Below are positions 14,925 through 61,688 of a stretch of 64,000 nucleotides of DNA, one piece after another. Positions within the stretch are counted from its first letter, which is position 1. Every line of letters starts with the position of its first letter. The stretch spans positions 5,646,000-5,709,999 of the forward strand of contig NW_027460346.1 of assembly GCF_050947875.1 (NCBI RefSeq). Direction: 5' to 3'. The DNA comes from Dermacentor variabilis. Its lineage: Eukaryota > Arthropoda > Arachnida > Ixodida > Ixodidae. Under the pieces are notes generated by a model. It ran no database searches. It had not been told where the DNA came from and saw nothing but the letters and a program-made list of their open reading frames with translations. The position numbers and the translations under genes were made by a program.

Positions 14925-15247
14925 ACGCTGACGTCCGGCCTCGGAAAGTCCGCCGCTTCCGTGGCAGAGGTAATTGGCGCCATCCATCGGGAGGGCGGGA
15001 AAGCAACTCCGTTTCCCTTGCACGGCCTCTTAGATGGGCGCGCGCAGCGCGCGGCGATCCAGGAGGGTGTGCCCTTTCGCCCCTCCTCTCAACTCCTCTC
15101 CTTGCCCTCCCACGTAACTCCCTCACTTTCGACTGCCTTCGCGCGCGCCCGCCGGCACGGCGCCAGCTTAGCCGGCTGCATGAAGTTTCACGTTTGGCTA
15201 TCTGCTGTTATCGGGAAACGTGCGCTTCTGTGCGTTAACCGGCGTGG
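14925..15247. other. GC-rich flank of LTR element
   Basis: This stretch precedes the retrotransposon insertion point. GTGG at 15244-15247 is the left target-site duplication. The sequence continues after the element at 22105, so the two flanks were contiguous before insertion. Confidence 0.6.
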
Positions 15248-15912
15248 TGTTGTGCCATTACCACAAGCCCGGATTCCGAATCTGCAAGATGGAGAATTTT
15301 CCTGCGAGCGCCCTTTGGACAAACCCGGGGCTGCGCCGAAAGGCACAGCGCCCTAATTCTCCCTTGACAAGCCAAGATGCTGAGCCGTCAGGCAGTGGTG
15401 TCCTCCGGAGAAGCATCGGCGGGCAACATGTTCAAACGTGTCGCCAAGTGCCAGACAGCCCGGCGCCGTACATCCCCTTCCCTGGAGGTCACCGCGCCCG
15501 CCAGTTTTGAACGGGGTGGCGAGCGTGATCGCTGGTTGGACCCCCTCCGACGACCGTCGAGTGCTCACTTTGTATTGGGCCGTTTGAGTGACAATGGTTT
15601 CTGGGGGCTTATAAGCCGCAGCGCGCCGCCTGGAAAACCGGATCCGCCGACCCACCGGGAGCAGAGTGCCGCTCTCGACTGGAGTGAGATGTGTCACGCG
15701 CTTTCGCCGGACGTCGCCGTGCGAGAACAGTCGCGTTTGCTGTGAGCTCTCGGCCCCAGTGCCGATCCCTTCATGTCCTGTATAATGACCTGTATATAGT
15801 GTATAAAGTCCCTTTTGTTATTCTCACCGACGCCTGACTCGGAGTCTTCGCTACCAACGCTCTGTCACGAAACGGGTGACGAGCGCTACGGGACCACCTC
15901 AAAGTCGTAACA
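15248..15912 (+). repeat. 5' LTR (665 bp)
   Basis: It starts TGTTGTGCC and ends GTCGTAACA, and matches 21436-22100 with a constant offset of 6188 and no difference that I could find. Candidate promoter elements are a TATAA-like string near 15609 and GTATAAAG near 15800, but their use is inferred. Confidence 0.95.
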
Positions 15913-15913
15913 G

Positions 15914-15931
15914 TGGATGGCAGCTACGGGA
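15914..15931 (+). promoter_or_regulatory. Candidate tRNA primer-binding site
   Basis: TGGATGGCAGCTACGGGA begins one base after the 5' LTR. It starts with the TGG expected to pair with a tRNA CCA end. A second TGG four bases on (TGGCAGCTACGGGATT) is an alternative register. The priming tRNA was not identified. Confidence 0.45.
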
Positions 15932-16213
15932 TTGACCGGCATCAGCTACCTCGGCGCGGTGAGTGCCTGAAGTTTACCTCAAACACCAGACTTTCTCTGA
16001 CACAGGTTATAGTAGCTTAGGGAAGGATTTGGTGTTGCATTGTGATAACCTTGTGTGTTTCAAGCCTAGTAAGAGTGTTTTGAAAACCAGGGGATGCTGA
16101 GGGGGTAAACAGGGCAGTGTGTGAAATACTTGCATATGTCTTACTAGTAGCATTATAGTAGCGTACAGCAGGTATATTCAAAAAGGGTAAACAGCAGGAG
16201 GACAGTGTGAACG

Positions 16214-19200
16214 ATGGAGAAGTACAAGGTGAAGGAACTTCTCGAAATTTGTGAGGAGTTGGGCATTGAGTTGGGCTCAACCAAAAGAAAGAATGCGATC
16301 CTTGAGGTCATGAAAACTGGGGACGTAACGGCTGAGGAAGCCGCAGAGGCCTTGGCGGGTATCAATGAACGTCGTTGCGAGCAGGAAAGGAAAGAAAAGG
16401 AACGTCGGGAAAGGGAGGAGAAGGAACGTTGCGAGCAGGAAAGGAAAGAAAAGGAACGTCGCGAGGAGGAAAGGGAGGAGAGGAGAGAAAAGGAACGTCG
16501 CGAGGAGGAAAAGGAGGAAAGGAGAGAGAGAGAACGTCGCGAGCACGAGCTTAAAATGAAAGAGTTGGAGATCCGAAATAACTCGCCCGCGCCTAGTCTC
16601 ACTTCTAACGTTCCAAGAATACGCGATCAACTTCCACCCTTTGTCGTCGGAGAGGATATGGCCAAATACCTCGTGAAATTTGAGCACGTGTGCGAACGAA
16701 ATAGCATTGAGCGATCCCTCTGGGCACAGAATCTGTTAGCCTTGCTTCCTGGGGAGGCATCAGACGTAATAACTTGCTTATCGAAAGAGGCGTTTGAGAG
16801 CTACAGTGATGTGAAGGAAGCGCTACTGCGGAAGTACAAATTGTCGCCCGAAGCTTTCCGGCAGAGGTTCCGGTATGCAAAAAAGGGCAAGGAGTCGAAT
16901 GTTGACTTCGCGTTTCGTCTAAAAGCCGACTTGGTGGAATGGCTGAAGGGCGAAGAGGTTTACGACGACCGCGACAAAATTGTCGAATGCATCGCGTTGG
17001 AGCAGTTCTACCGTTGCATTGATGAGGATGTCCGGCTCTGGCTGCAAGATAGGCTAAAGGAGGTTAAGCTAAACAAGGCAGCAGAATTAGCGGAAGAGTA
17101 TTACACCCGCCGCAGCTTGCACAGCAAGGCAGTGCGCGTAGAAAAAGCAGATAGGAGAGATGGGTTTTCCGGGAAGCCCGACGAACGGAAGCAAATCACG
17201 CGTCGCGAGTTTCGGAAAGACGAGTCCCTAACCAAAGAAACTGTAAGGGAAGGACAGAATACATCTCAGTATGCTAACGATGGTCCCAAGCAGCGAAACG
17301 ATACGACGCGTTCTTTTGAAAAACGGAAGCCGTTAACTTGCTACAATTGCAAAAAGCAAGGGCACATCGCTGCGAGCTGCCCAGAGAAAATTGCTTTTGC
17401 AACAATACGGGAAACTAACAAAAACATACGACTCTTGGAGCCATATATGCGGGAAATTAAGGTAAACGGCAAGAAGTGCCGAGCACTTCGGGACTCTGCA
17501 GCAACTATGGACGTTGTCCACCCGTCTTTCGTCTCCTCGAATGATTTTACGGGAGAGTGCGCTTGGATACGGCAAGTGGCCGAGGAGGAGAGTGTCTGTT
17601 TACCGATCGCAACGGTTATCATTGAAGGAGAGTTTGGGAAACTGAACACAGAAGCCGCTGTGTCTGCCGCCCTCCCGGAGCACTTTCCCTACCTCTTCTC
17701 AAATAGCTCGGAACAGCTGCTGAAGGATCAGGGGAAATCATTCTTTGCCGACGTGGCGTACATGGCCCTCACGCGATCCAAAGCGCGCCAGCTGTCGAGG
17801 GAACTTGACTTTGAGTCGGTGAGCGAAAGGCGGTGCGGCACACGGACTGATCAAGGTAACTTGAGTGGCGAGCAGTCACGGGAGAGGCAGAGCTCGGAGG
17901 CTGGCCTAGGCGAGCGGGTCCTGGAAGTGAGTGGGAGTGACGCGTGCAGTGCTAGCCGCGATATGGACACGACGCCGCAGTTAGGCGACGCAGGCTCCAT
18001 ACTCGCTCCGGTTTCCGCCAGCTGGCAGGAGCTAGCTGCAGTTGAAAGAGAAACTCTGATTCGTGAGCAAAAGGAAGACTGTTCAATAGCCGATCTGATG
18101 AAGAGCGTCAAACTGGGAGTGGAAAAAAAGAGGGTTTCATTTTACGAGGAATCTGGCTTATTGTACCGCCGCTACACGGATAAGCAGGGTCGCAAATATG
18201 AACAGCTTCTGATTCCTCGGAAATATCGCCGACAGTTACTGGAACTCGCGCACGAAAACGCGTGGGCAGGGCATCTTGGCTTGAAAAAGACCAAGGCTAG
18301 AATGGCTCAGGAGTTTTATTGGCCGTATTGTTGGAAGGATGTCGAACAATTCGTGCGCTCTTGCGACACCTGCCAGAGAATCGGCAAATCCACTGACAAG
18401 TGGAAGGCACCGATGAAGTTGGTGCCAGTCATATCCGAACCTTTTCGGCGACTAGTAATCGATATTGTAGGCCCTCTGCCAGAATCAACGAACGGTTGTA
18501 GGTATGTTCTGACCACTCTGTGTGTCGCGACCAAGTTCCCCGAGGCAGTACCTCTTAAGGAGCTAAATTCCTCCCAGGTCGTGGACGCTCTGCTCTCAAT
18601 ATTTGCACGCGTCGGGTTCCCTTCCGAGATTCAGTGCGACAATGGCAGCGTCTTCACCAGCTGCCTAACTTCTACTTTTTTGGAAAGATGCGGCATTAAG
18701 GTAGTGCACAGTTCCATCCATCACCCGCAATCTAACCCAGTAGAGCGTATGCACTCGGTGCTGAAGCGAATATTGAGAGCCCTGTGCTTTGAGCGTCACT
18801 GTGACTGGGAGGCCTGCATTCCCGCCGCTATGTTCGCCTTGAGATCGGCTCCCCATGAGAGCACCGGCTTTAGTCCCGCGGAGCTTGTATATGGCCGGAG
18901 CCTAAGAACTCCGTTGCGCATGCTGCGAGAGTCTTGGGAAGGCAGTGACGACGACCCAAATGTAGTCTCGTACGTCCTTGACCTCCTCCAGAGGCTCGGG
19001 AAAACCAAAGATATTGTAGAGAGCCACATGAAGGCGGCGAAAACCTTGTCAAAGGAATACTACGACAAGTCAGCAAAAAAACGCACCTTCGAAGAAGGTA
19101 GCCAAGTGATGTTGCTGCGACCGTCGAAAAAAAACAAGCTCGAGGTTCATTGGGAGGGGCCCGCAAAGGTTGTAACTAAGCTTTCCGATACCAACTACGA

Positions 19201-20770
19201 AGTTAAATTAGGGAAACGGCACAACAAAATTTACCACAGTAACTTGATGAAACCCTACATTCAGCGTCGCGCGATTATAAGCATGACGATAAATGCTGAC
19301 GATGAGGAAGGGGCCGAAATCCTGACGACGGCTGATATGAAGGTATGTGGTTTAGAGCTAATGGTGGAACAGCTGACGTTGGAAGCGCGTCTAAGTGCCG
19401 CCCAAAAGGAGGACTTAAAGGGAATCATTTCAGAGTTTAGGGAGGTTTTTTCGAACCGTCCCGGAAGAACAACAGTCCTAGAGCATGACATCGAGTTAAC
19501 CTCTGATCAACCGATCCGCAGTAAACCGTACCGTTGTTCGCCCGTGCAGAAAAAAATCATGGCTGAGGAGATTCAGCGCATGCGTGACTTGGGGGTTATA
19601 GTACCAAGTGAGAGCGACTACACGTCGCCCTTGATACTAGTCCAGGCTCCAGGAAAAGATCCTAGGCCATGTGTCGATTATCGGCGTCTGAACGCGATAA
19701 CCCGAGATCAGACATATCCGATACCGAACCTGGAAGAAAGGGTAGAGACAGTGTCGAAGGCAAATTATATATCTACCCTGGATCTCGTGCGAGGCTATTG
19801 GCAAGTACCCCTTACGGAACGAGCTAGCCGCTATGCCGCCTTCGTTTCCCCGCTTGGAACGTTCCGGCCACTCATGTTGAGCTTCGGCCTCAAAAACGCG
19901 CCGTATTGTTTCTCTAGCCTGATGGACAGAGTGCTTCATGGTTTAGGCGAGTTCGCATTGCCGTACCTCGATGATGTTGCCATATTTTCGGACACTTGGG
20001 AATCACATCTGGAGCACTTGCGAGTCGTGTTGAGCCGGTTGAAAGAGACAGGTCTTACTGTGAAACCAGCTAAATGTCACCTAGGTTGCGGTGAAGTGAC
20101 TTATTTGGGCCATGTGGTGGGGCGCGGCCGGCGTAGACCGTCCGACATCAAGGTAGCTGCTATTTTGAACTATCCCCGGCCAACCACGAAGACGGATATA
20201 CGGGCCTTTTTAGGTTTAGCTGGATATTACCAACACTATGTGAGAGACTACTCTGACCTTGCCAGCCCGCTAACCGACGCACTTCGGAAGTCGGAGCCCG
20301 TTAAGGTGACGTGGGACTCAAAGAAAGAAAATGCGTTCCAAATGCTGAAGCGAGCATTAAGCCATAAGCCGGTTCTGACGGCACCAGACTTTTCGAAAGG
20401 TTTCATCATTCAATGCGACGCGAGTGATCGCGGCATGGGAGCGGTACTATGCCAAGAAGATGCTAGTGGTCATGAACGACCAATTTTGTATTTAAGTCGC
20501 AAACTAAGTTGTAGAGAAGAGGCATACAGTACCTCTGAGAAAGAGTGCGCCTGCGTTGTGTGGGCCGTTCAGAAGCTGGCTTGTTATGTCTCCGGTTCTA
20601 AGTTTGTTGTGGAAACAGACCATTGCCCTCTAACTTGGTTAAGTAGCATGTCCTCTAAAAGCGGCCGTTTGCTGAGATGGAGCATGACCCTCCAGCAGCA
20701 CAGCCTCGTTGTCCGTTATAAGAAGGGAAGGTTGAACGCGAACGCTGACGCTCTAAGTCGTGCATTCTAG
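16214..20770 (+). CDS. Gag-pol polyprotein, integrase before RT
   Basis: One frame of 1518 residues. Residues 1-53 form a SAP-like helical start, and 54-115 an E/R/K-rich coiled-coil-like repeat. The gag capsid-like region spans about 140-320, with a CCHC zinc knuckle (CYNCKKQGHIAASC) at 376-389. The protease-like motif RDSAATMDVVHPSF has D at 427, with DSA in place of DTG/DSG. Integrase follows: an HHCC zinc motif from H680 (HENAWAGH ... CDTCQR) and a catalytic core with D750, D809 and E844 (34 residues between the last two). RT has YLDD at 1251-1254 and GYWQVPL. RNase H has D1402 (CDASDRGMGAVL), SEKECACVVW and ETDHCPLTWL, and ends near NANADALSR. The ATG at 16214 is the first in a long open frame. 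The protein would make particles, reverse-transcribe and integrate the element. All catalytic residues named are intact. Confidence 0.95.
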   Translation: MEKYKVKELLEICEELGIELGSTKRKNAILEVMKTGDVTAEEAAEALAGINERRCEQERKEKERREREEKERCEQERKEKERREEEREERREKERREEEKEERRERERREHELKMKELEIRNNSPAPSLTSNVPRIRDQLPPFVVGEDMAKYLVKFEHVCERNSIERSLWAQNLLALLPGEASDVITCLSKEAFESYSDVKEALLRKYKLSPEAFRQRFRYAKKGKESNVDFAFRLKADLVEWLKGEEVYDDRDKIVECIALEQFYRCIDEDVRLWLQDRLKEVKLNKAAELAEEYYTRRSLHSKAVRVEKADRRDGFSGKPDERKQITRREFRKDESLTKETVREGQNTSQYANDGPKQRNDTTRSFEKRKPLTCYNCKKQGHIAASCPEKIAFATIRETNKNIRLLEPYMREIKVNGKKCRALRDSAATMDVVHPSFVSSNDFTGECAWIRQVAEEESVCLPIATVIIEGEFGKLNTEAAVSAALPEHFPYLFSNSSEQLLKDQGKSFFADVAYMALTRSKARQLSRELDFESVSERRCGTRTDQGNLSGEQSRERQSSEAGLGERVLEVSGSDACSASRDMDTTPQLGDAGSILAPVSASWQELAAVERETLIREQKEDCSIADLMKSVKLGVEKKRVSFYEESGLLYRRYTDKQGRKYEQLLIPRKYRRQLLELAHENAWAGHLGLKKTKARMAQEFYWPYCWKDVEQFVRSCDTCQRIGKSTDKWKAPMKLVPVISEPFRRLVIDIVGPLPESTNGCRYVLTTLCVATKFPEAVPLKELNSSQVVDALLSIFARVGFPSEIQCDNGSVFTSCLTSTFLERCGIKVVHSSIHHPQSNPVERMHSVLKRILRALCFERHCDWEACIPAAMFALRSAPHESTGFSPAELVYGRSLRTPLRMLRESWEGSDDDPNVVSYVLDLLQRLGKTKDIVESHMKAAKTLSKEYYDKSAKKRTFEEGSQVMLLRPSKKNKLEVHWEGPAKVVTKLSDTNYEVKLGKRHNKIYHSNLMKPYIQRRAIISMTINADDEEGAEILTTADMKVCGLELMVEQLTLEARLSAAQKEDLKGIISEFREVFSNRPGRTTVLEHDIELTSDQPIRSKPYRCSPVQKKIMAEEIQRMRDLGVIVPSESDYTSPLILVQAPGKDPRPCVDYRRLNAITRDQTYPIPNLEERVETVSKANYISTLDLVRGYWQVPLTERASRYAAFVSPLGTFRPLMLSFGLKNAPYCFSSLMDRVLHGLGEFALPYLDDVAIFSDTWESHLEHLRVVLSRLKETGLTVKPAKCHLGCGEVTYLGHVVGRGRRRPSDIKVAAILNYPRPTTKTDIRAFLGLAGYYQHYVRDYSDLASPLTDALRKSEPVKVTWDSKKENAFQMLKRALSHKPVLTAPDFSKGFIIQCDASDRGMGAVLCQEDASGHERPILYLSRKLSCREEAYSTSEKECACVVWAVQKLACYVSGSKFVVETDHCPLTWLSSMSSKSGRLLRWSMTLQQHSLVVRYKKGRLNANADALSRAF

Positions 20771-21435
20771 GCCTCGCTTCTTTCAGTGGCCTACTCGTTC
20801 CTACTCGTTACTTGCCTTCTCTTGCTTCGCGACGACCTGTCCTGTTCACAGGGAGATCGGGGGAAAAATGAATGACCTCATTGGCTTCCTCAGTAGTATG
20901 TTTTCGGTCCAAGTGATTTCAAGGGGACCATTCTAATTTTCATTGTTATTGCTGATTATTAATTGTTCCTGATCTTTTGGGTGTGTTGTTCATTTGAAAA
21001 AGGGTTGTTTGAGCCTTGTATACTAGATCGTACACCTGCCTCTTGTTGCAGCGGGAGCAAAAAGGGGGATAGCAATTCAGTTAGGTTGATTTGGATTATA
21101 GCCTTGTCTGGTGTTTGACGGGAGACAGAGGGCACTTGTTCGTGTTGGGTGTTGCCTTTTGCCGGTCGGTTTTGCAAGCTGCAGAACGACCAACCGGGAC
21201 CAGTGGCGAGAAGCAAGGGCTTAGGAACGACCCGAGCGGAGCTGGTTGAGGTGCCTTGGCGACAACGCGGTGAGCCGAGCTCCTGTCCTGGCGAGTGGGA
21301 CCTGGGCACGTGAAGTGACCTGGCGTCCCGACACTGGACGTAAACTTGGACGAGCCTGACGAACGTGCGCGCCTGGCATCCGAGCCACGTGGAGGCAGCT
21401 CGTCTTCCCGGCGCCTTATCTGAGGGCGGGGATGC
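20771..21435 (+). other. 3' untranslated region of LTR element with polypurine tract
   Basis: No env or other conserved frame is seen; an antisense open frame here has no recognisable domain. GAGGGCGGGGA at 21422-21432 lies just upstream of the 3' LTR and is the likely polypurine tract. Confidence 0.7.
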
Positions 21436-22100
21436 TGTTGTGCCATTACCACAAGCCCGGATTCCGAATCTGCAAGATGGAGAATTTTCCTGCGAGCGCC
21501 CTTTGGACAAACCCGGGGCTGCGCCGAAAGGCACAGCGCCCTAATTCTCCCTTGACAAGCCAAGATGCTGAGCCGTCAGGCAGTGGTGTCCTCCGGAGAA
21601 GCATCGGCGGGCAACATGTTCAAACGTGTCGCCAAGTGCCAGACAGCCCGGCGCCGTACATCCCCTTCCCTGGAGGTCACCGCGCCCGCCAGTTTTGAAC
21701 GGGGTGGCGAGCGTGATCGCTGGTTGGACCCCCTCCGACGACCGTCGAGTGCTCACTTTGTATTGGGCCGTTTGAGTGACAATGGTTTCTGGGGGCTTAT
21801 AAGCCGCAGCGCGCCGCCTGGAAAACCGGATCCGCCGACCCACCGGGAGCAGAGTGCCGCTCTCGACTGGAGTGAGATGTGTCACGCGCTTTCGCCGGAC
21901 GTCGCCGTGCGAGAACAGTCGCGTTTGCTGTGAGCTCTCGGCCCCAGTGCCGATCCCTTCATGTCCTGTATAATGACCTGTATATAGTGTATAAAGTCCC
22001 TTTTGTTATTCTCACCGACGCCTGACTCGGAGTCTTCGCTACCAACGCTCTGTCACGAAACGGGTGACGAGCGCTACGGGACCACCTCAAAGTCGTAACA
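21436..22100 (+). repeat. 3' LTR (665 bp)
   Basis: It has the same ends and length as 15248-15912. GTGG follows at 22101-22104 as the right target duplication. Confidence 0.95.
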
Positions 22101-22184
22101 GTGGGCAGTTTCGTCACTGTCATGGTCCTCGATAGCTGTGTGCTTGTGCTCCGCATGTTTCACCCGTTTCACCACTCTCACGGC

Positions 22185-34751: not shown

Positions 34752-35237
34752 GTGCTAAAAAATGAGCACGTCCTGTGCTACCGGGGCTTAGCGGAGAGAC
34801 GAGAACTAGGAGTCGGATTCCTGATTAATAAGGATATAGCTGGTAATATAAAGGAATTCTATAGCATTAACGAGAGGGTGGCATGTCTTGTTAAACTTAA
34901 TAAGAGGTGCACATTGAAGGTCGTACAGGTCTACGCCCCTACATCCACTCATGATGACCAGGAAGTGGAAAGCTTCTATGAAGACGTGGAATCGGCGATG
35001 GGTAAAGTCAAAACAAAATACACTATACTGATGGGCGACTTCAATGCCGAGGTAGGCAAGAAGCAGGCTGGAGACAAGTCAGGGGGGGAATATGGCATAG
35101 GCTCTAGGAATAGCAGGGGAGAGCTATTAGTAGAGTTTGCAGAACAGAATAATATGCGGATAATGAATACCTTCTTCCGCAAGCGGGATAACCGAAAGTG
35201 GACGTGGAGGAGCCCAAAGGGCGAGACTAGAAATTAG
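34752..35237 (+). pseudogene. RTE endonuclease domain
   Basis: This frame reads GVGFLINKDIAGNIKEFYSI, VVQVYAPTSTHDDQEVESFY, ILMGDFNAEVG and NTFFRKRDNRKWTWRSPKGE, matching the AP-type endonuclease of non-LTR elements. Earlier residues (WDIIGLSEVRRTKEAY, about 34695-34750) lie in the same region before this Met. The stop at 35235 cuts the expected DYIL...SDH segment, which continues in another frame (GLGKVRCSDHMMVRTRI, about 35282). It nicks target DNA during retrotransposition in intact relatives. It is broken here. Confidence 0.85.
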
Positions 35238-35275
35238 ACTTCACACTCTGCGCTAACCCTGGCATCATACAAGAT

Positions 35276-37124
35276 GTGGACGGGCTCGGCAAGGTACGCT
35301 GTAGTGACCATATGATGGTAAGAACTCGAATTACCCTAAACTTGAGGAGGGAATGGAAGAAACTGGTACATAAGAAGCCAATCAATGAGTTAGCGGTAAG
35401 AGGGAAACTAGAGGAATTCCGGATCAAGCTACAGAACAGGTATTCGTCTTTAACTCAGGAAGAGGACCTTAGTGTTGAAGCAATGAACGACAATCTTATG
35501 GGCATCATTAAGGAGCATGCAATAGAAGTCGGTGGTAACTCCGTTAGACAGGATACCAGTAGGCTATCGCAGGAGACGAAAGATCTGATCAAGAAACGCC
35601 AATGTATGAAAGCATCTATCCCTACAGCTGGAATAGAACTGGCAGAACTTTCTAAGTTAATCAACAAGCGTAAGACAGCTGACATAAGGAACTATAATAT
35701 GGATAGAATTGAACATGCTCTCAGGAACGGAGGAAGCCTAAAAGCAGTGAAGAAGAAACTAGGAATAGGCAAGAATCAGATGTGTGCTTTAAGAGACAAA
35801 GCCGGCAATATTACTAATATGGATGAGATAGTTCAAGTGGCTGAGGAGTTCTATAGAGATTTATACAGTACCAGTAGCGCCCGCGACGATAATCTGAGTG
35901 AGAATAGTCTAGAGGAACTTGAAATCCCACAAGTAATGGTGGAAGAAGTAAAGATACGCCTTGGGAGCTATGCAAAGGGGGAAGGCAGCGGGGAAGGATC
36001 AGGTAACAGAAGATTTGTTGAAGGATGGTGGGCACATTGTTCTAGAAAAACTGGCCACCCTGTATGCACAGTGCCTCATGACCTCGAGCGTACTTGGAAG
36101 AACGCTCGAGAAGAACGCTCGAGAACGCTCGAGGGAAGAATCTTGGAAGAACGCTAACATAAGCCTAATCCATAAGAAAGGGGACGCCAAAGACTTGAAA
36201 AATTATAGACTGATCAGCTTACTGTCCGTTGCCTACAAACTAAGGTAATCGCAAATAGATTCAGGGACACCTTAGACTCCTGTCAACCAAAGGACCTCAA
36301 CAATAGGCTACTCAACAATAGACCATATTCACACTATCAATCAGGTGATAGAGAAATGTGCTGAATATAACCAACCCTTATATATAGCTTTCATTGATTA
36401 CGAAAAAGCGTTTGATTCAGTCGAAACCTCAGCAGTCATGGAGGCACTACGGAATCAGGGTGTAGACGAGCCATATGTAAAAATACTGATAGATATCTGT
36501 AGCGGCTCAACAGCCACCGTAGTCCTCCATAAAGAAAGCAACAAAATCCCAATAAAGAAAGGCGCCAGGCAGGGGGATACGAACTCTCCAATGCTATTCA
36601 CAGCGTGTTTACAGGAGGTATTCAGAGACCTGGAGTGGGAAGAATTGGGGATAAAAGTTGATGGAGAATACCTTAGGAACTTGCGATTCGCTGATGATGT
36701 TGCCTTGCTTAGTAACTCAGGAGACCAATTGCAACGCATGCTCACTGACCTGGAGAGGCAAAGCAGAATGGTGGGTCTAAAAATTAATCTGCAGAAAACT
36801 AAAGTAATGTTTAACAGTCTCGGTAGAGAACAGCAGTTTACGATAGGTAGCGAGGCACTGGAAGGGGTAAGAGAATACATCTACTTAGGGCAGGTAGTGA
36901 GCACAGATCCGGATCATGAGACTGAAATAACCAGAAGAATAAGAATGGGCTGGGGTGCGTTTGGCAGGCATTCTCAAATCATGAACACCAGGTCGCCACT
37001 ATCCCTCAAGAGAAAAGTGTATAACAGCTGTGTCTTACCAGTACTCACGTATGGGGCAGAAACCTGGAGGCTTACGAAAAGGGTTCTGCTTAAATTGAGG
37101 AACGAGCTATGGAAAGAAGAATGA
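35276..37124 (+). pseudogene. RTE reverse transcriptase, frameshifted
   Basis: Three overlapping frames share the RT. 35276-36157 is the linker between endonuclease and RT. 35961-36248 has [20 protein letters not shown] and [20 protein letters not shown]. 36345-37124 has IAFIDYEKAFDSVETSAVME, ARQGDTNSPMLFTACLQEVF and the catalytic LRFADDVALL box. The gap at 36249-36344 holds the weakened region 2a. A triplicated AACGCTCGAG at about 36101-36132 accompanies one frame change. The protein would prime cDNA synthesis at the nicked target. At least two frameshifts make this copy inactive. Confidence 0.88.
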
Positions 37125-48425: not shown

Positions 48426-48689
48426 AAGCGTTTTGGAAACCCGCCGTGGTTGCTCAGTGGCTATGGTGTTGGGCTGCTGAGCCCGAGGTCGCGGGATCGA
48501 ATCCCGGCCACGGCGGCCGCATTTCGATGGGGGCGAAATGCTAAAACATCCGTGTACTTAGATTTAGGTGCACGTTAAAGAACCCCAGGTGGTCAAAATT
48601 TCCGGAGTCCTCCACTACGGCGTGCCTCATAATCAGAAAGTGGTTTTGGCACGTAAAACCCCATAATTTAATTTAAGCGTTTGGGACAA
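48426..48689 (+). mobile_element. Ruka-like SINE, full length
   Basis: The SINE is 48441-48674: CCGCCGTGGTTGCTCAGTGG head, GGGATCGAATCCCGG B box, and end CCCCATAATTTAATTT. Flanks AAGCGTTTTGGAAA (48426) and AAGCGTTTGGGACA (48675) look like a target duplication with two differences. Confidence 0.93.
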
Positions 48690-56091: not shown

Positions 56092-56629
56092 TCAGTAGAT
56101 GCGCCCCCCGCAGGGGCGTCTGCGTAAGCAGGTGTTTGGTGTGTTGCGACACCACGTACCCGAGCACACGAGGGTTGGACCCTCCCGCGTGTAGCCGTGC
56201 GCGGCTTAGCCGTGTCCGGGGAAAGGGGGATCCTGGAGGTTGAGCCGATGCCGGGTGTTCGGACCTTTAAGGCCCCCCGGCGGAGGCAACACGCCTCTTT
56301 GGCCTCTGCTTCACGTAGACGGCACCCCCGGACTGACCCACCCGGGGGAAATCGGTAGTTGCCTTTTCCTGTCTCTCTCTCCCTATTACCTTCGTCTTTC
56401 CCTTACTTTCCGCCTTTCCTGTCTCCTTCTCATTTCTTTATTACTTCCGACCTTCCTGGCAGCAAGGGTTAACCTTGTGTGAGTAGCCAACCTTGGTTAT
56501 GTCATATTGGGTTATAGTGGCAACGTACAGCTGGCGTTTGCAGGCCCTGTTTTTCAGGCCCTGCAGCGTCCCCTTGTTGGACTCCATGGTGGGTGGCTGG
56601 CGTTGCTGCCGAAAACTACACGTCCACAC

Positions 56630-57925
56630 ATGGCTACTTCCTTCCCTTCACTACCTGATCGCCCTCAGAAAAGAGGGCGCACCGATGAAGTCTTTCAATT
56701 TTTTGGCCGCCAAAAAGAATCGTTCCCGCGTTTCCATGTTATCCATTCTGCAAAACCAGATAAACCAGTAAGAACCATCTCACCCTTCCTTGTTTCGAAG
56801 TCATTGACTGAAGCCTTTGGTCCTGGATATAAGGCGTCGAGGATGGCAAGCGGGGATCTCCTCTTGGAGCTCCGCGATCAAAAACAATATGAAAAATTGT
56901 CAACACTAGTGTCATTTGGGGAAACCCAGATAATTATAACCCCGCACCGCACGATGAACACCACCCGTGGTGTTGTCTCTGACGATGACTTGATGGAGCT
57001 CACTGAGGCTGAACTCTTGGAGGGCTTCAGTGACCAGAATGTTATAAATGTTAAACGAATTAAGATGAGGCGAGATGGAAAAGAGATCAAGACGAAACAC
57101 CTGATACTCACTTTCGGCTCAAGTGTCCTTCCCGAGTCCATCGAGGCTGGTTATATCAAACTTCGTTTTCGACCATACGTTCCCAATCCTCTCAGATGCT
57201 TTAAGTGCCAACGTTTCGGCCACAGTTCACAGAACTGTCGAGGCCGGCTGACTTGTGCCAAGTGCAGTGACAATGAACATTCCTCCGAAACGTGCCAGAA
57301 CACCCCACATTGTGTCAACTGTGATGGCGAGCATGCCGCATACTCGCGCGCCTGCCCGTCCTGGAAAAAAGAAAAAGAAATTATGACCATAAAAGTAAAA
57401 GAAAATATCACTTTCAAAGAGGCACGGAGGCGGGTGTCATACCTGTCTAAGAGCAGCTTTGCCGATGTGGCGCGTAAGGGGGCAGCGTCACAACGGCCTC
57501 CGGCGGCTGTCCGACCCACAAGCAGTGAGTCGGCAGTTACGCCATCTGCCCCCGCGGCGGTCGCAGCTAGCGCTGCTCCGTCAACACAGCAGGGGGGACC
57601 ATCGACCCCGAAGGTGGGCGCAGCTGAGGGTGCCCCAATCTCCCCGGCCCCTCCCAGCGCTGGCAACAGCCGGCGCAGCCAAATCCCGCAGGGTGCCCCA
57701 TCGACCTCCGGGCTGGTGGGCGCAGGGGTCTTGCCCTCCAAGGCGGGACCCTCTCGGGAAACTTCTCGCTCGCAAGAGCAGGTGTCCGGCGCCTCACAAG
57801 AGGCAATGGACACTACACCTATCCTCAAGGCGCACCAGGCGCCTAAGGAGCGGCGAGGTTCCCTCGAACGCTTCAAAAAGAGCAAAACCCCGGTTACAGG
57901 GCCTCGAAAGGGCTCTGTAATCTAA
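56630..57925 (+). CDS. LINE ORF1 protein (zinc-knuckle RNA binder)
   Basis: 431 residues from Met 56630 (MATSFPSLPDRPQKRGRTDE). An upstream in-frame Met at 56507 adds 41 residues without charge or conservation, so the later start is preferred. Middle: TISPFLVSKSLTEAFGPGYK, LTEAELLEGFSDQNVINVKR and IKLRFRPYVPNPLRCFKCQR. Three Cys/His knuckles follow: CFKCQRFGHSSQNC, CAKCSDNEHSSETC and CVNCDGEHAAYSRAC. The C-terminus is Pro/Ala/Ser-rich and low in complexity. It would coat the element RNA. ORF2 begins 46 bases after its stop. A decayed relative lies at 51.8-52.7 kb. Confidence 0.9.
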   Translation: MATSFPSLPDRPQKRGRTDEVFQFFGRQKESFPRFHVIHSAKPDKPVRTISPFLVSKSLTEAFGPGYKASRMASGDLLLELRDQKQYEKLSTLVSFGETQIIITPHRTMNTTRGVVSDDDLMELTEAELLEGFSDQNVINVKRIKMRRDGKEIKTKHLILTFGSSVLPESIEAGYIKLRFRPYVPNPLRCFKCQRFGHSSQNCRGRLTCAKCSDNEHSSETCQNTPHCVNCDGEHAAYSRACPSWKKEKEIMTIKVKENITFKEARRRVSYLSKSSFADVARKGAASQRPPAAVRPTSSESAVTPSAPAAVAASAAPSTQQGGPSTPKVGAAEGAPISPAPPSAGNSRRSQIPQGAPSTSGLVGAGVLPSKAGPSRETSRSQEQVSGASQEAMDTTPILKAHQAPKERRGSLERFKKSKTPVTGPRKGSVI

Positions 57926-57971
57926 GGCATCACTTCCGTTTCCGTAAGCACAGCACCAATTTACTTTAAAA

Positions 57972-60900
57972 ATGGATACACAAATAATTCAGTGGAATGT
58001 CCGAGGTCTTCTTAGAAACCTTGATGATTTGCAAGAACTCATCCACAAACATAATCCAAAAGTGCTGTGTTTACAGGAAACACACTTAAAATCCAAACAC
58101 ACAAACTTTCTCCGTACGTATCTTACTTTTCGCAAAGATCGCGATGATTCCGTCGCATCATCGGGTGGTGTGGCGATTCTCACTCATAAAAGTATAGCAT
58201 GTCAACCTTTACAGCTACGAACGCCTCTTGAAGCAGTGGCGGTGCGAGCTGTTCTGCTAAACAAACTCACTATATGCTCGCTTTATATACCCCCACATCA
58301 CAAATTAACTAAACATGAATTTCAATCCTTTATAGATGAATTGCCAGAACCTTATCTGGTTCTTGGCGACTTCAATGCACACAACTACCTGTGGGGCGAC
58401 CCTCGTATAGATGCGCGAGGACGTCTTGTTGAACAGTTCCTTTTCTCTTCTGGTGCTTGTCTACTGAATAAGAAGGAAGCGACATACTATTCTCTTGCAA
58501 ACAGAACATTTTCTTCAATAGATCTTAGCCTAGTCTCTCCGTCACTACTGTCTGAACTTGAATGGGAAGTAAACGACAATCCTTACGGAAGCGACCACTT
58601 CCCTATACTACTAAGAACATATAAAGAAAAGGAATGTCTACCACAGGCTCCCAGGTGGAAAATAGATACAGCCGACTGGGAGAAATTCAGAACTCTCACC
58701 AGGATCTCATGGAATGACATGGCCTCTTTAGAAATTGATGCTGCCGTTCAATATTTTACAGCCTTCATTATAGATGCCGCATCAAAATGCATATCTGAAG
58801 TAAGTGGTTTCGCATGCAAACGGCGCGTCCCGTGGTGGAACGACGAGTTTAGGACCGCCCGTAAGAAACAAAACAAAGCGTGGGGGTTGCTACGCGCCTC
58901 TCCCACTGCGGAGAATCTTATTAACTTTAAAAAAGCAAAATCTGAAGGAAGGAGAACGCGCCGACAGGCCAGAAGAGAGAGCTGGCAGAAGTTTTTATCG
59001 GGTATCAACTCTTATACAGAGGAGGGGAAAGTCTGGAACAGGGTTAACAGGATAAAAGGACGACAAACTTATTCACTCCCCCTGGTAAACACTCAAGGCG
59101 ATACCCTGCTTGAACAAGCAGACTCACTTGGGGAGCACTTTCAGAGCGTGTCAAGTTCCAACAATTACTCAAAACCCTTTCTCAAATATAAACAAATAGA
59201 AGAACGCAAGCCACTCATAAGAAAGTGTCGGCAGAATGAACCGTACAACCGCCCCTTTAGTATTGCAGAGTTGAGAGCTGCCTTGAGCGCATGCAAGAGC
59301 TCTGCACCGGGATCTGACAGAATCATGTATGAAATGCTGAAAAACTTACACAATGACACGCAACTGACACTACTTACACTTTTCAACACTATCTGGCACG
59401 CAGGGTACCTTCCGACCGCATGGAAAGAAGCCATTGTGGTCCCTGTTTTAAAACAAGGGAAAGATCCTTCCTCAGTTGCAAGCTACCGCCCGATAGCCCT
59501 CACAAGCTGCATGTGTAAGGTATTTGAAAAAATGATAAATCAGCGACTGATCCATTTCCTTGAACAGAACAAAATGCTTGATCCCTATCAGTGTGGCTTC
59601 CGAGAAGGGCGCTCCACAACCGACCATCTTGTACGTATTGAAGGAAATATCCGGGACGCATTTATACATAAACAGTTCTTCCTCTCGATATTTCTCGATA
59701 TGGAAAAGGCGTATGACACCACGTGGCGATACGGGATCTTGCGAGACTTATCGGAAATGGGCATTCATGGTAATATCCTAAACCTCATAGAAAGCTATTT
59801 GTCCAATCGCACATTCCGTGTAAAAGTCGGCAATGTGCTGTCACGTCCTTTTACACAAGAAACTGGTGTACCCCAGGGAGGTGTGCTCAGTTGCACACTT
59901 TTTATTGTTAAAATGACAACGCTTCGTGCTTCCTTACCACCAGCCATTTTGTATTCCGTCTATGTGGACGACATTCAAATAGGCTTCAAATCCTGTAACC
60001 TCACAGTATGCGAGAGACAGGTACAGCATGGTTTGAACAAGGCGTCACGGTGGGCAGAGGAAAATGGTTTTAAAATCAATCCTCAAAAGAGTTCTTGTGT
60101 GCTGTTTACAAGGAAGAGAGGCCTTGTTCCGGATCCTTGCTTACAAATGTGTGGACAACAGATACCTGTAAACAAAGAGCACAAATTTCTAGGTGTTATA
60201 CTTGACAATAGACTCACTTTCGTCCCACACATTAAACAACTCAAAGAAAAGTGTCTGAAAACAATGAACTTAATGAAACTTCTATCCCAGACTACGTGGG
60301 GTAGTGACAGGAAGTGCCTAATGAATCTGTATAAGAGCCTCATCCGGTCACGATTAGATTATGGTGCCGTGGCATATAACTCTGCCGCCCCGAGTGCGCT
60401 AAAGATGCTAGACGCTGTTCACCATCTAGGTATCCGCTTAGCCACGGGCGCTTTCAGAACAAGCCCAATTGAAAGCTTATATGCCGAATCCAATGAATGG
60501 TCTCTCCACCTACAGAGATCATACATCAGCGTTACATATTTCCTTAAAGTACGCTCCAATCCTGAACATCCATGTTTTGATACCGTTACCGATATGACGT
60601 GCGCTACACTTTTCAGCAACCGTCCCTCCATAAGACAGCCTTTTTCGCTGCGTGTGAAGCAGCTTAGCAATGAAATGCATGTCCCACTCCTCGAGCATCG
60701 CTTAATGCGCACAATCAAGCTCTTACCTCCCTGGGAGTGGCAGGTGATACAATGTGACATATCCTTTATAAAAGTTACAAAGCACGCTCCTGAGGCCGAA
60801 ATCAGAATGCATTTCCGGGAACTTCAGTACAAACACTCCTGCGCTGATTTCTACACAGACGCTTCGAAGTCAAATGCCGGGGTATCCTATGCAGCAGTCG

Positions 60901-61688
60901 GCCCATCCTTCTCGGAATCCGATGTACTGCATCCCGAAACAAGCATCTTTACGGCCGAGGCCTACGCATTACTCTCTGCCGTGAAGCATATAAGAAGATC
61001 AAAACTTTCAAAAGCAGCGATCTATACAGACTCTCTAAGCGTCGTGAAGGCCTTAAAGTCACTCTACAAACATAAAAATCCCGTATTCAATGAACTGTAT
61101 TCGGCATTATGTCAAGCGTACTCATCTAACCAGAATATCATAATATGCTGGGTCCCTGGCCATAGGGGAATCGAAGGTAACGTTCTCGCGGACGAGATGG
61201 CCACGTCAATCACATCGCAAGCTGTTAACCCTACCGCTGATGTGCCTGTCACAGACCTGAGGCCTTTCGTACGAAATAAACTGCGAAGTCACTGGCAGTG
61301 CACGTGGGACGCGCAAACAAATAACAAACTGCACGTTATAAAGCCCCGGTTAGGTTTTTGGCCCTCCCCAACAAAATCTCGGCGAACAGAAGTCCTATTC
61401 TGTCGCCTCAGAATAGGACACACATTTGGGACCCACAACTTTTTACTCACGGGAAACGATCCTCCAACCTGTGGTAGATGCGGTGAGAGGCTGACCGTCC
61501 TCCATGTCCTCTTGGAGTGTCGGAAAGCCGAACCTGAAAGAAAGAAACATTTTCCGCTCGCATACCGTTATTACATCCCTCTGCACCCGGCTATGTTTCT
61601 TGGTCATGAACCGCTTTTTAACACCAAGGCAGTCCTCGACTTCTTAAAAGATGTAGTTCTACACGTCATAAGCCCATTAAATTCGTAG
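57972..61688 (+). CDS. LINE ORF2 (endonuclease, RT, RNase H)
   Basis: 1238 residues. The AP endonuclease at about 1-220 has IIQWNVRGL, LCLQETHLKS, LVLGDFNAHNYLWGD and YGSDHFPILL. RT at about 420-720 has YRPIALTSCMCKVFEKMINQ, CGFREGRSTTDHLVRIEGNI, FLDMEKAYDTTW, GVPQGGVLSCTLF and YVDDIQIGF (YVDD from residue 664). RNase H has FYTDASKSNAG (catalytic D963), FTAEAYALLSAV, IYTDSLSVVKAL and CWVPGHRGIEGNVLADEMA. The C-terminal Cys/His motif CGRCGERLTVLHVLLEC starts near residue 1167. The protein nicks target DNA and copies element RNA. No break was found and all named catalytic positions are intact. Confidence 0.95.
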   Translation: MDTQIIQWNVRGLLRNLDDLQELIHKHNPKVLCLQETHLKSKHTNFLRTYLTFRKDRDDSVASSGGVAILTHKSIACQPLQLRTPLEAVAVRAVLLNKLTICSLYIPPHHKLTKHEFQSFIDELPEPYLVLGDFNAHNYLWGDPRIDARGRLVEQFLFSSGACLLNKKEATYYSLANRTFSSIDLSLVSPSLLSELEWEVNDNPYGSDHFPILLRTYKEKECLPQAPRWKIDTADWEKFRTLTRISWNDMASLEIDAAVQYFTAFIIDAASKCISEVSGFACKRRVPWWNDEFRTARKKQNKAWGLLRASPTAENLINFKKAKSEGRRTRRQARRESWQKFLSGINSYTEEGKVWNRVNRIKGRQTYSLPLVNTQGDTLLEQADSLGEHFQSVSSSNNYSKPFLKYKQIEERKPLIRKCRQNEPYNRPFSIAELRAALSACKSSAPGSDRIMYEMLKNLHNDTQLTLLTLFNTIWHAGYLPTAWKEAIVVPVLKQGKDPSSVASYRPIALTSCMCKVFEKMINQRLIHFLEQNKMLDPYQCGFREGRSTTDHLVRIEGNIRDAFIHKQFFLSIFLDMEKAYDTTWRYGILRDLSEMGIHGNILNLIESYLSNRTFRVKVGNVLSRPFTQETGVPQGGVLSCTLFIVKMTTLRASLPPAILYSVYVDDIQIGFKSCNLTVCERQVQHGLNKASRWAEENGFKINPQKSSCVLFTRKRGLVPDPCLQMCGQQIPVNKEHKFLGVILDNRLTFVPHIKQLKEKCLKTMNLMKLLSQTTWGSDRKCLMNLYKSLIRSRLDYGAVAYNSAAPSALKMLDAVHHLGIRLATGAFRTSPIESLYAESNEWSLHLQRSYISVTYFLKVRSNPEHPCFDTVTDMTCATLFSNRPSIRQPFSLRVKQLSNEMHVPLLEHRLMRTIKLLPPWEWQVIQCDISFIKVTKHAPEAEIRMHFRELQYKHSCADFYTDASKSNAGVSYAAVGPSFSESDVLHPETSIFTAEAYALLSAVKHIRRSKLSKAAIYTDSLSVVKALKSLYKHKNPVFNELYSALCQAYSSNQNIIICWVPGHRGIEGNVLADEMATSITSQAVNPTADVPVTDLRPFVRNKLRSHWQCTWDAQTNNKLHVIKPRLGFWPSPTKSRRTEVLFCRLRIGHTFGTHNFLLTGNDPPTCGRCGERLTVLHVLLECRKAEPERKKHFPLAYRYYIPLHPAMFLGHEPLFNTKAVLDFLKDVVLHVISPLNS

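Follow-up and report, generated by a model that had tools for sequence, protein, structure and literature searches.

A young integrase-first Ty3/gypsy element in the tick Dermacentor variabilis and its probable Gag-protease-only partner

We analyzed a stretch of 64,000 nucleotides of the Dermacentor variabilis genome (hereafter the window; coordinates are positions in it) that carries, at 15248-22100, a long terminal repeat (LTR) retrotransposon of the Ty3/gypsy group in which the integrase precedes the reverse transcriptase (RT), as in the elements known as Gmr1. Searches of the whole assembly (2.48 Gb, 605 contigs) identified near-identical siblings of this copy and a shorter form reduced to Gag and protease. 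The sequences very probably describe a young Gmr1-type Ty3/gypsy element and a Gag-protease form of single origin that most likely shares particles with full-length RNA and relies on the full-length enzymes for its copying. The parts of the window copy are listed below, with residues numbered in its 1518-residue frame and with domains taken from a Pfam run on three pieces of that frame.

15244-15247, no strand: target site duplication GTGG, 5' copy, 4 bp (from the sequence)
15248-15912, + strand: 5' LTR, 665 bp, TGTTG...AACA (0/665 mismatches against the 3' LTR)
15914-15933, + strand: primer binding site, a variant of the tRNA-Leu(AAG) complement (from sibling copies and the tRNA genes of the genome)
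16214-20770, + strand: single gag-pol open reading frame (ORF), 1518 amino acids, unbroken
16847-17110, + strand: SCAN domain of Gag (capsid C-terminal type), residues 212-299 (PF02023, E 5.4e-11)
17336-17386, + strand: CCHC zinc knuckle, residues 375-391 (PF00098, E 2.1e-5)
17426-17758, + strand: aspartic protease, approximate limits, active-site DSA (motif DSAAT at residue 427)
18212-18382, + strand: integrase zinc-binding domain Integrase_H2C2, residues 667-723 (PF17921, E 7.6e-21)
18232-20860, + strand: stretch missing in the Gag-protease-only derivative, 2629 bp (alignment ends of short copies)
18437-18727, + strand: integrase core rve as matched, residues 742-838 (PF00665, E 2.1e-11)
19157-19255, + strand: integrase C-terminal domain p58_C, residues 982-1014 (PF22938, E 4.7e-7)
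19652-20116, + strand: reverse transcriptase RVT_1, residues 1147-1301, YLDD at 1251 (PF00078, E 1.7e-27)
20387-20698, + strand: RNase H (RT_RNaseH), residues 1392-1495 (PF17917, E 1.4e-36)
21422-21432, + strand: polypurine tract ahead of the 3' LTR (read from the sequence)
21436-22100, + strand: 3' LTR, 665 bp (identical to the 5' LTR)
22101-22104, no strand: target site duplication GTGG, 3' copy, 4 bp (from the sequence)

By Pfam and motif, the single frame reads Gag(SCAN)-CCHC-protease-integrase-RT-RNase H, with the integrase (residues 667-1014) upstream of RT-RNase H (residues 1147-1495) in one pol. The integrase motif residues are H680, H687, C717, C720, D750, D809 and E844, with 34 residues from D809 to E844; D750 and D809 lie within the rve match and E844 (18743-18745) just past its end. 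These residues match exactly those of a first-pass annotation of the window, which had described a single unbroken frame with an HHCC-D-D-E integrase (680-844) before YLDD at 1251 and RNase H, and in the Pfam check rve did not fall after RNase H. Matches below the cut-off (Rho_N, DUF5741, Prion, DDE_3 and SH3_Tf2-1) were left unused. All the hallmarks of an LTR retrotransposon are present (paired LTRs, target duplication, primer site and polypurine tract), and the LTRs have diverged by at most roughly 0.45% (0/665 mismatches, rule of three). The identical 665-bp LTRs, the GTGG duplication and the open frame of 1518 amino acids bear out the earlier description of the copy as young and complete, and confirm a structurally complete LTR retrotransposon, very probably an ordinary new Gmr1-type member. 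The LTRs, the duplication, the Gag domains and the Gag-protease-only partner elsewhere in the genome went beyond that description. Within Gag, positions 16373-16549 hold repeated charged Glu/Arg/Lys units where the alignments of otherwise similar copies are interrupted or gapped. An ORF on the minus strand (20959-21534) was rejected as a real gene, as 17 of 30 copies have 1-7 internal stops in its frame and its lengths differ by single bases.

The best solved relative of both the RT-RNase H part (E 2.4e-65) and the integrase (E 1.6e-29) was Ty3. A search with residues 630-1518 retrieved 661 proteins at E up to 0.001, and the integrase preceded the RT in all of the 120 listed. The sources of these listed homologues included Ornithodoros, Haemaphysalis, Ixodes, Rhipicephalus, Amblyomma, spiders, the beetle Onthophagus taurus, Xenopus, Pseudophryne, the turtle Chrysemys, the crinoid Antedon and the oyster Saccostrea, many rows being nameless. 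With a conventional gypsy of the same genome (L050, RT-RNase H-integrase) as the contrast query, all 120 listed matches (of 6884) were RT-first. The window also holds a decayed gypsy of its own:

894-2852, - strand: decayed conventional gypsy, RT-RNase H-integrase (tblastn pieces; RNase H Pfam matches)

On the minus strand, its RT and RNase H span 2852-1811, its zinc domain 1594-1358 and its integrase core 1163-894, the ordinary order that the first-pass annotation had assigned to this relic.

Trees were built from 33 integrase-first rows and 30 (RT-RNase H) or 29 (integrase) RT-first rows, Ty3 included, mostly a forced-plus-random subset of 104 and 117 usable proteins. The integrase-first rows formed one clade both in FastTree (support 0.99 for RT-RNase H and 0.984 for integrase) and in IQ-TREE (SH-aLRT 98 for RT-RNase H and 94, below the mark of 95, for integrase). 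Each tree implied a single change of gene order, and 0 of 500 shuffles were as low; the root is unsure because the Ty3 branch is very long. Most simply, the order would have changed once within gypsy with the integrase retained. Repeated origins, by which the 120 homologues would not be one lineage, are improbable given the single change on both trees and the shuffles, even if the RT-first contrast was limited to one conventional lineage, the decayed gypsy of the window and Ty3. Integrase before RT is also the copia order, and on that ground the element could be a Ty1/copia or BEL/Pao member, or a chimera with a copia integrase, gypsy-like in looks only. This we find scarcely credible, since Ty3 is the best match of the RT and the best solved relative of the integrase, the trees of RT and integrase each give one integrase-first clade, and Pfam matched no copia-type RT family in the 1518-residue frame, only RVT_1 and the gypsy-type RT_RNaseH, beside the H2C2 family. 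The Gmr1-type order with a gypsy-type RT, as first annotated, is upheld by the Pfam families, the kinship to Ty3 and the trees.

Thirty-four copies were read at full length and 30 of them had two LTRs (19 full-type and 11 short), all 30 with 4-bp target duplications. The duplications had seemed to be missing in 6 of the first 16 copies, in which the duplication lies beyond an extra 28-bp unit of the LTRs. Once CCA is added, the tRNA-Leu(AAG) genes of the genome end in the complement of TGGTGGCAGCGGTGGGAT. The exact 18-nt complement of tRNA-Leu(AAG) is the primer site of 6 of the 30 copies, a variant that of 23 (window copy included) and another sequence that of 1; a length of 18 nt fits copying of the tRNA up to the modified A58. 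The first genome match for the primer tRNA (L051) was discarded as merely a tRNA fragment. The 3' ends of tRNA-Leu(AAG) occur in large clusters (G000:C3:79660680-79738435 and C4:124108005-124333807); a 22-base tRNA-Leu(AAG) pattern, with up to 1 mismatch, was found at 162 places, and both clustered places that were read are tRNA-Leu(AAG) genes.

The U5 end carries one or two extra units of 27-28 bp in 10 of the 30 copies (L011, L013, L016-L018, L021, L023, L037, L045 and L048; the site is window 15905-15933). They consist of a primer-site-like stretch and the last U5 bases, GTCGTAACA, and the 3' LTR also has the unit in 9 of the 10 copies. The LTR thus looks like one that grows by partial tRNA-derived repeats, as in repeated mis-transfer of plus-strand strong-stop DNA. 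One of these copies, the full-type L023 (G000:C1:141252900-141259900), has a different deletion, about element 2100-2927, that removed the knuckle-protease region and left a frame of 1223 amino acids.

The short form was traced from the 40 best LTR matches, whose pairs measured about 6.1-6.2 kb or about 3.5-3.6 kb, with one of 5.3 kb. Window positions 18232-20860 (2629 bp) are absent, with the same alignment ends, in all 11 short copies read. The deletion takes all but the first integrase residues, the RT, the RNase H and the stop codon; the joined sides then give the codons R-R-E-K-stop, and the frame stops just inside the integrase zinc domain with the protein end PRKYRREK (11/11). Ten of the short copies have an ORF of 641-692 amino acids from the usual start and one an ORF of 551, and two zinc knuckles are present in eight. 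Their LTR pairs are identical (8/11) or differ by 1 (2/11) or 3 mismatches (1/11), and 4-bp duplications flank all 11. Read as marks of integration, the identical LTRs and the duplications show that the short copies, as judged from their sequences, moved recently without enzymes of their own.

We estimated abundance with a 30-base pattern spanning the deletion junction (88 places) and a 31-base pattern of the undeleted 3' site (40 places), each with up to 2 mismatches and with no places for the reversed controls; such counts miss older copies, and the short and full patterns differ. Full-length reading covered 11 of the 88 short places and 23 of the 40 full-type places, 4 of the 23 without a clear LTR pair in the stretch. 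Like TR-GAG elements, the derivative has two LTRs and a Gag ORF without pol enzymes, with the protease retained.

In the protease-side region (17288-18231), the 11 short copies form one clade (support 100, 29 rows; L023 was left out, as it lacks the region) with a stem of about 0.028 substitutions per site, and they are 92-95% like the window copy. In the gag region (16640-17287), these 11 copies are interspersed with full ones, and their grouping as one clade is rejected (30 rows, p-AU 4.6e-69). A single deletion event is most likely. Because the short copies are one clade beside the deletion but mixed in gag, the short and full forms appear to have recombined, the simplest route being a template switch from one RNA to another within a particle. 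No full-length parent with the protease-side variant of the short form was found among the 18 full-type copies having the region. The normalized nonsynonymous/synonymous ratio of this region was 0.52 in the 11 short copies (47 synonymous and 71 nonsynonymous changes, p 5e-4), 0.56 without the mosaic L015 (p 0.0035) and 0.53 in a core of 7 short copies, compared to 0.50 in 15 full copies (three full copies with stops were left out); pairwise, the ratios were 0.45 among short and 0.43 among full copies. Thus, the short copies look as constrained as the full ones in the protease-side region.

Proteins of Gag-protease type are also annotated in other ticks. A protein search with the short frame of L012 gave 93 matches, and 92 of the proteins were examined. 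A Dermacentor albipictus protein of 652 amino acids (P0125) is 91% identical to L012 over residues 113-672, and its last 25 residues are those of 8 of the 11 short copies. Another end, HRYRRLKVAG plus Y or C, is common to 19 of the 92 proteins, all named Rhipicephalus microplus, two of them isoforms of one gene. The similarity of the 19 proteins covers Gag-protease and the integrase C-terminus but skips the integrase core; in 17 of them, the RT start PYRCS is followed by a stretch resembling the one upstream of the zinc domain (P0133 and P0136 were inspected by eye). Such an order, known from gene models alone, would not be expected from the splicing of a collinear element. Amblyomma and Haemaphysalis models (P0126, P0128 and P0129) were not counted as Gag-protease forms, as an intron in the gene model may account for their lack of the integrase core. 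At the positions where P0126 and P0129 skip it, the window reads GTCAAA and CTCCTCCAG, with GT and AG, and the skipping of the core in the three models may be a gene-model artefact or real splicing. Three proteins filed as Anaplasma SCAN-domain or hypothetical proteins (P0176, P0178 and P0180; contigs of about 1.7-2.2 kb) look like the Gag of tick retrotransposons and are probably tick DNA in bacterial assemblies.

We propose that the RNA of the full element would be primed by tRNA-Leu(AAG) and translated as one Gag-protease-integrase-RT-RNase H polyprotein that its own protease would cut; the element would then be copied in particles and integrated with 4-bp duplications. The full element is presumably active. 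A single deletion of the integrase-RT-RNase H block, the last in this order, would have made the short form, whose RNA may be co-packaged with full-length RNA and served in trans by the full-length enzymes. We regard co-packaging as most likely because the short and full forms recombine. Trans mobilization of the Gag-protease-only partner is likely. In cattle, recombination between complete and defective copies of an endogenous retrovirus, ERVK, was read by the authors as co-packaging (PMC10924933).

Several observations weigh against this proposal. The protease of the window copy had no Pfam match and its active site is DSA rather than DTG, the primer site of that copy is not the exact tRNA-Leu complement, and a frame of 1496 amino acids or more is present in only 8 of the 19 two-LTR copies of the full type. 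For the 3' untranslated region, a single clade of short copies was not rejected (p-AU 0.33), and the constraint on the short copies could in part be imported by recombination. Their open frames are, moreover, biased to young copies because the copies were chosen among the 40 best LTR matches to the window. Concerning the protease, the DSAAT motif lies shortly behind the knuckle, and Pfam protease matches fall at this place in the homologues P0092 and P0111, weakly in P0085 and not in P0047. A motif scan of the 120 listed homologues found DSA in 29, DSG in 20, DTG in 35 and none of these in 36, and we argue that a DSA protease would be functional because the same DSA recurs in 29 of the 120.

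The short form could also be only a parasite or debris, an internal deletion riding on LTRs and packaging signals with a frame that has no role of its own, and we give this explanation serious weight though somewhat less than an even chance. Such forms are known: the D-type ERVK copies of cattle, which lack functional genes, account for 85% of their family, predominate among new insertions and exchange sequence with complete copies by recombination (PMC10924933), and the plant LARD and TRIM elements are non-coding (PMC5818461). The sampled short copies are young and their open frames may be leftover, and gag sequence can persist for packaging alone. On the other hand, codon constraint in the protease-side region is as strong in short as in full copies (0.52 vs. 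0.50) despite the stem of about 0.028, and another tick has an annotated protein that ends in the same way. At the opposite extreme, the short form could be a standing partner that supplies extra Gag for particles, recombination and the constraint on its frame keeping the pair together. Extra Gag is proposed because the full element makes Gag and Pol 1:1 in one polyprotein; we consider such a partnership unlikely. If it were true, the same end in D. albipictus and the separate amplified Gag-protease-type family of R. microplus would make it a repeated solution in ticks. Very improbable, finally, is an origin of the short form as a retrocopy of spliced gag-protease RNA that became fixed as DNA. 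Copia makes its gag-protease RNA by splicing out the block that is deleted here, and the gene order resembles that of copia, but the deleted stretch starts with ACAG and ends with CGG. Splicing was rejected as the origin, as there is no GT-AG at the junction, and the short copies are one sequence clade rather than repeated fresh copies.

The window copy alone is ordinary and settles little; the pair matters more. As proposed here, a Gag-protease form that arose once has diverged by several per cent, possibly across Dermacentor species, was found at more places than its parent and still exchanges sequence with it. Trans-mobilized, recombining defective elements were already known in cattle, and what the tick pair adds is a constrained Gag-protease frame beside a single-polyprotein parent. 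It could serve as a natural system for asking how such elements obtain sufficient Gag and whether derivatives with Gag alone benefit their parents or parasitize them.

Elsewhere in the window, a non-LTR element (56507-61688) has a 1238-amino-acid endonuclease-RT-RNase H frame after a frame of 472 amino acids without a Pfam match, and a broken relative of it lies at 34752-37124. A tRNA-like match at 48443-48515 (31.9 bits vs. the Rfam threshold of 29) drew no call from ARAGORN and is possibly a short interspersed element.

Gmr1 elements are gypsy elements with the integrase upstream of the RT (PMC3587641, PMC8220671, PMC6238403). Gmr1-like elements were described from crustaceans in 2013, termed there the first in protostomes (PMC3587641), and from the annelid Lamellibrachia in 2021 (PMC8220671), and another study noted the clade in several phyla but did not find it in its own annelid set (PMC8556966). 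A literature search for Gmr1, tick and gypsy as whole words found no paper, and one for Gmr1 and spider gave only PMC3587641, where the matching text has "spider" in a crab's name. The statement in the first-pass annotation that this arrangement is known from relatively few animal elements is outdated in view of the 120 listed homologues with the same order and the crustacean and annelid reports; the Gmr1 arrangement is not rare. Nor does one copy suffice to date the rearranged lineage, as had been suggested; members of the lineage are already known from ticks, spiders and vertebrates as well as from a crinoid and an oyster. The window element shares with the Gmr1 clade (Atlantic cod Gmr1, crustaceans and Lamellibrachia) the integrase-upstream order and a gypsy-type RT, RNase H and integrase and differs by its tick host. 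The SCAN domain of vertebrate genes is derived from a Gmr1-like Gag (PMC3424704), and over half of the frog Gmr elements studied contain SCAN (PMC4131045). The Xenopus protein P0085 shares this layout, from SCAN through a weak protease match and the integrase to RT and RNase H, at about 44% identity over the searched part; the tick element differs in its protease motif, DSA.

Among the closest counterparts of the short form are the TR-GAG elements of plants, which have LTRs and a Gag ORF but no pol, and for which a case in Arabidopsis was shown to move (PMC8704663, PMC5818461). The TR-GAG literature that we found consisted of plant papers only, going by titles and the opening of abstracts. Both kinds have LTRs, one Gag ORF, a missing pol and a close autonomous relative, whereas the tick form differs in its animal host, integrase-first parent, retained protease and recombination with the parent. 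The cattle D-type ERVK[2-1-LTR], which moves by trans-complementation and which its authors set beside ETn/MusD and IAP IDelta1 of mice, resembles the tick form in that defective copies outnumber complete ones and recombine with them (PMC10924933). The D-type copies, as that report presents them, lack an intact gag, protease, pol or env frame, whereas the tick form has kept its Gag-protease frame open and constrained and, unlike the D-type, is a clean deletion in which no other sequence replaces the lost part. The subgenomic gag-protease RNA of copia has the same domain set and gene order, but the tick form is a genomic deletion without splice signals. Because the integrase-first order puts all the enzymes in a 3' block, one deletion leaves a clean Gag-protease element.

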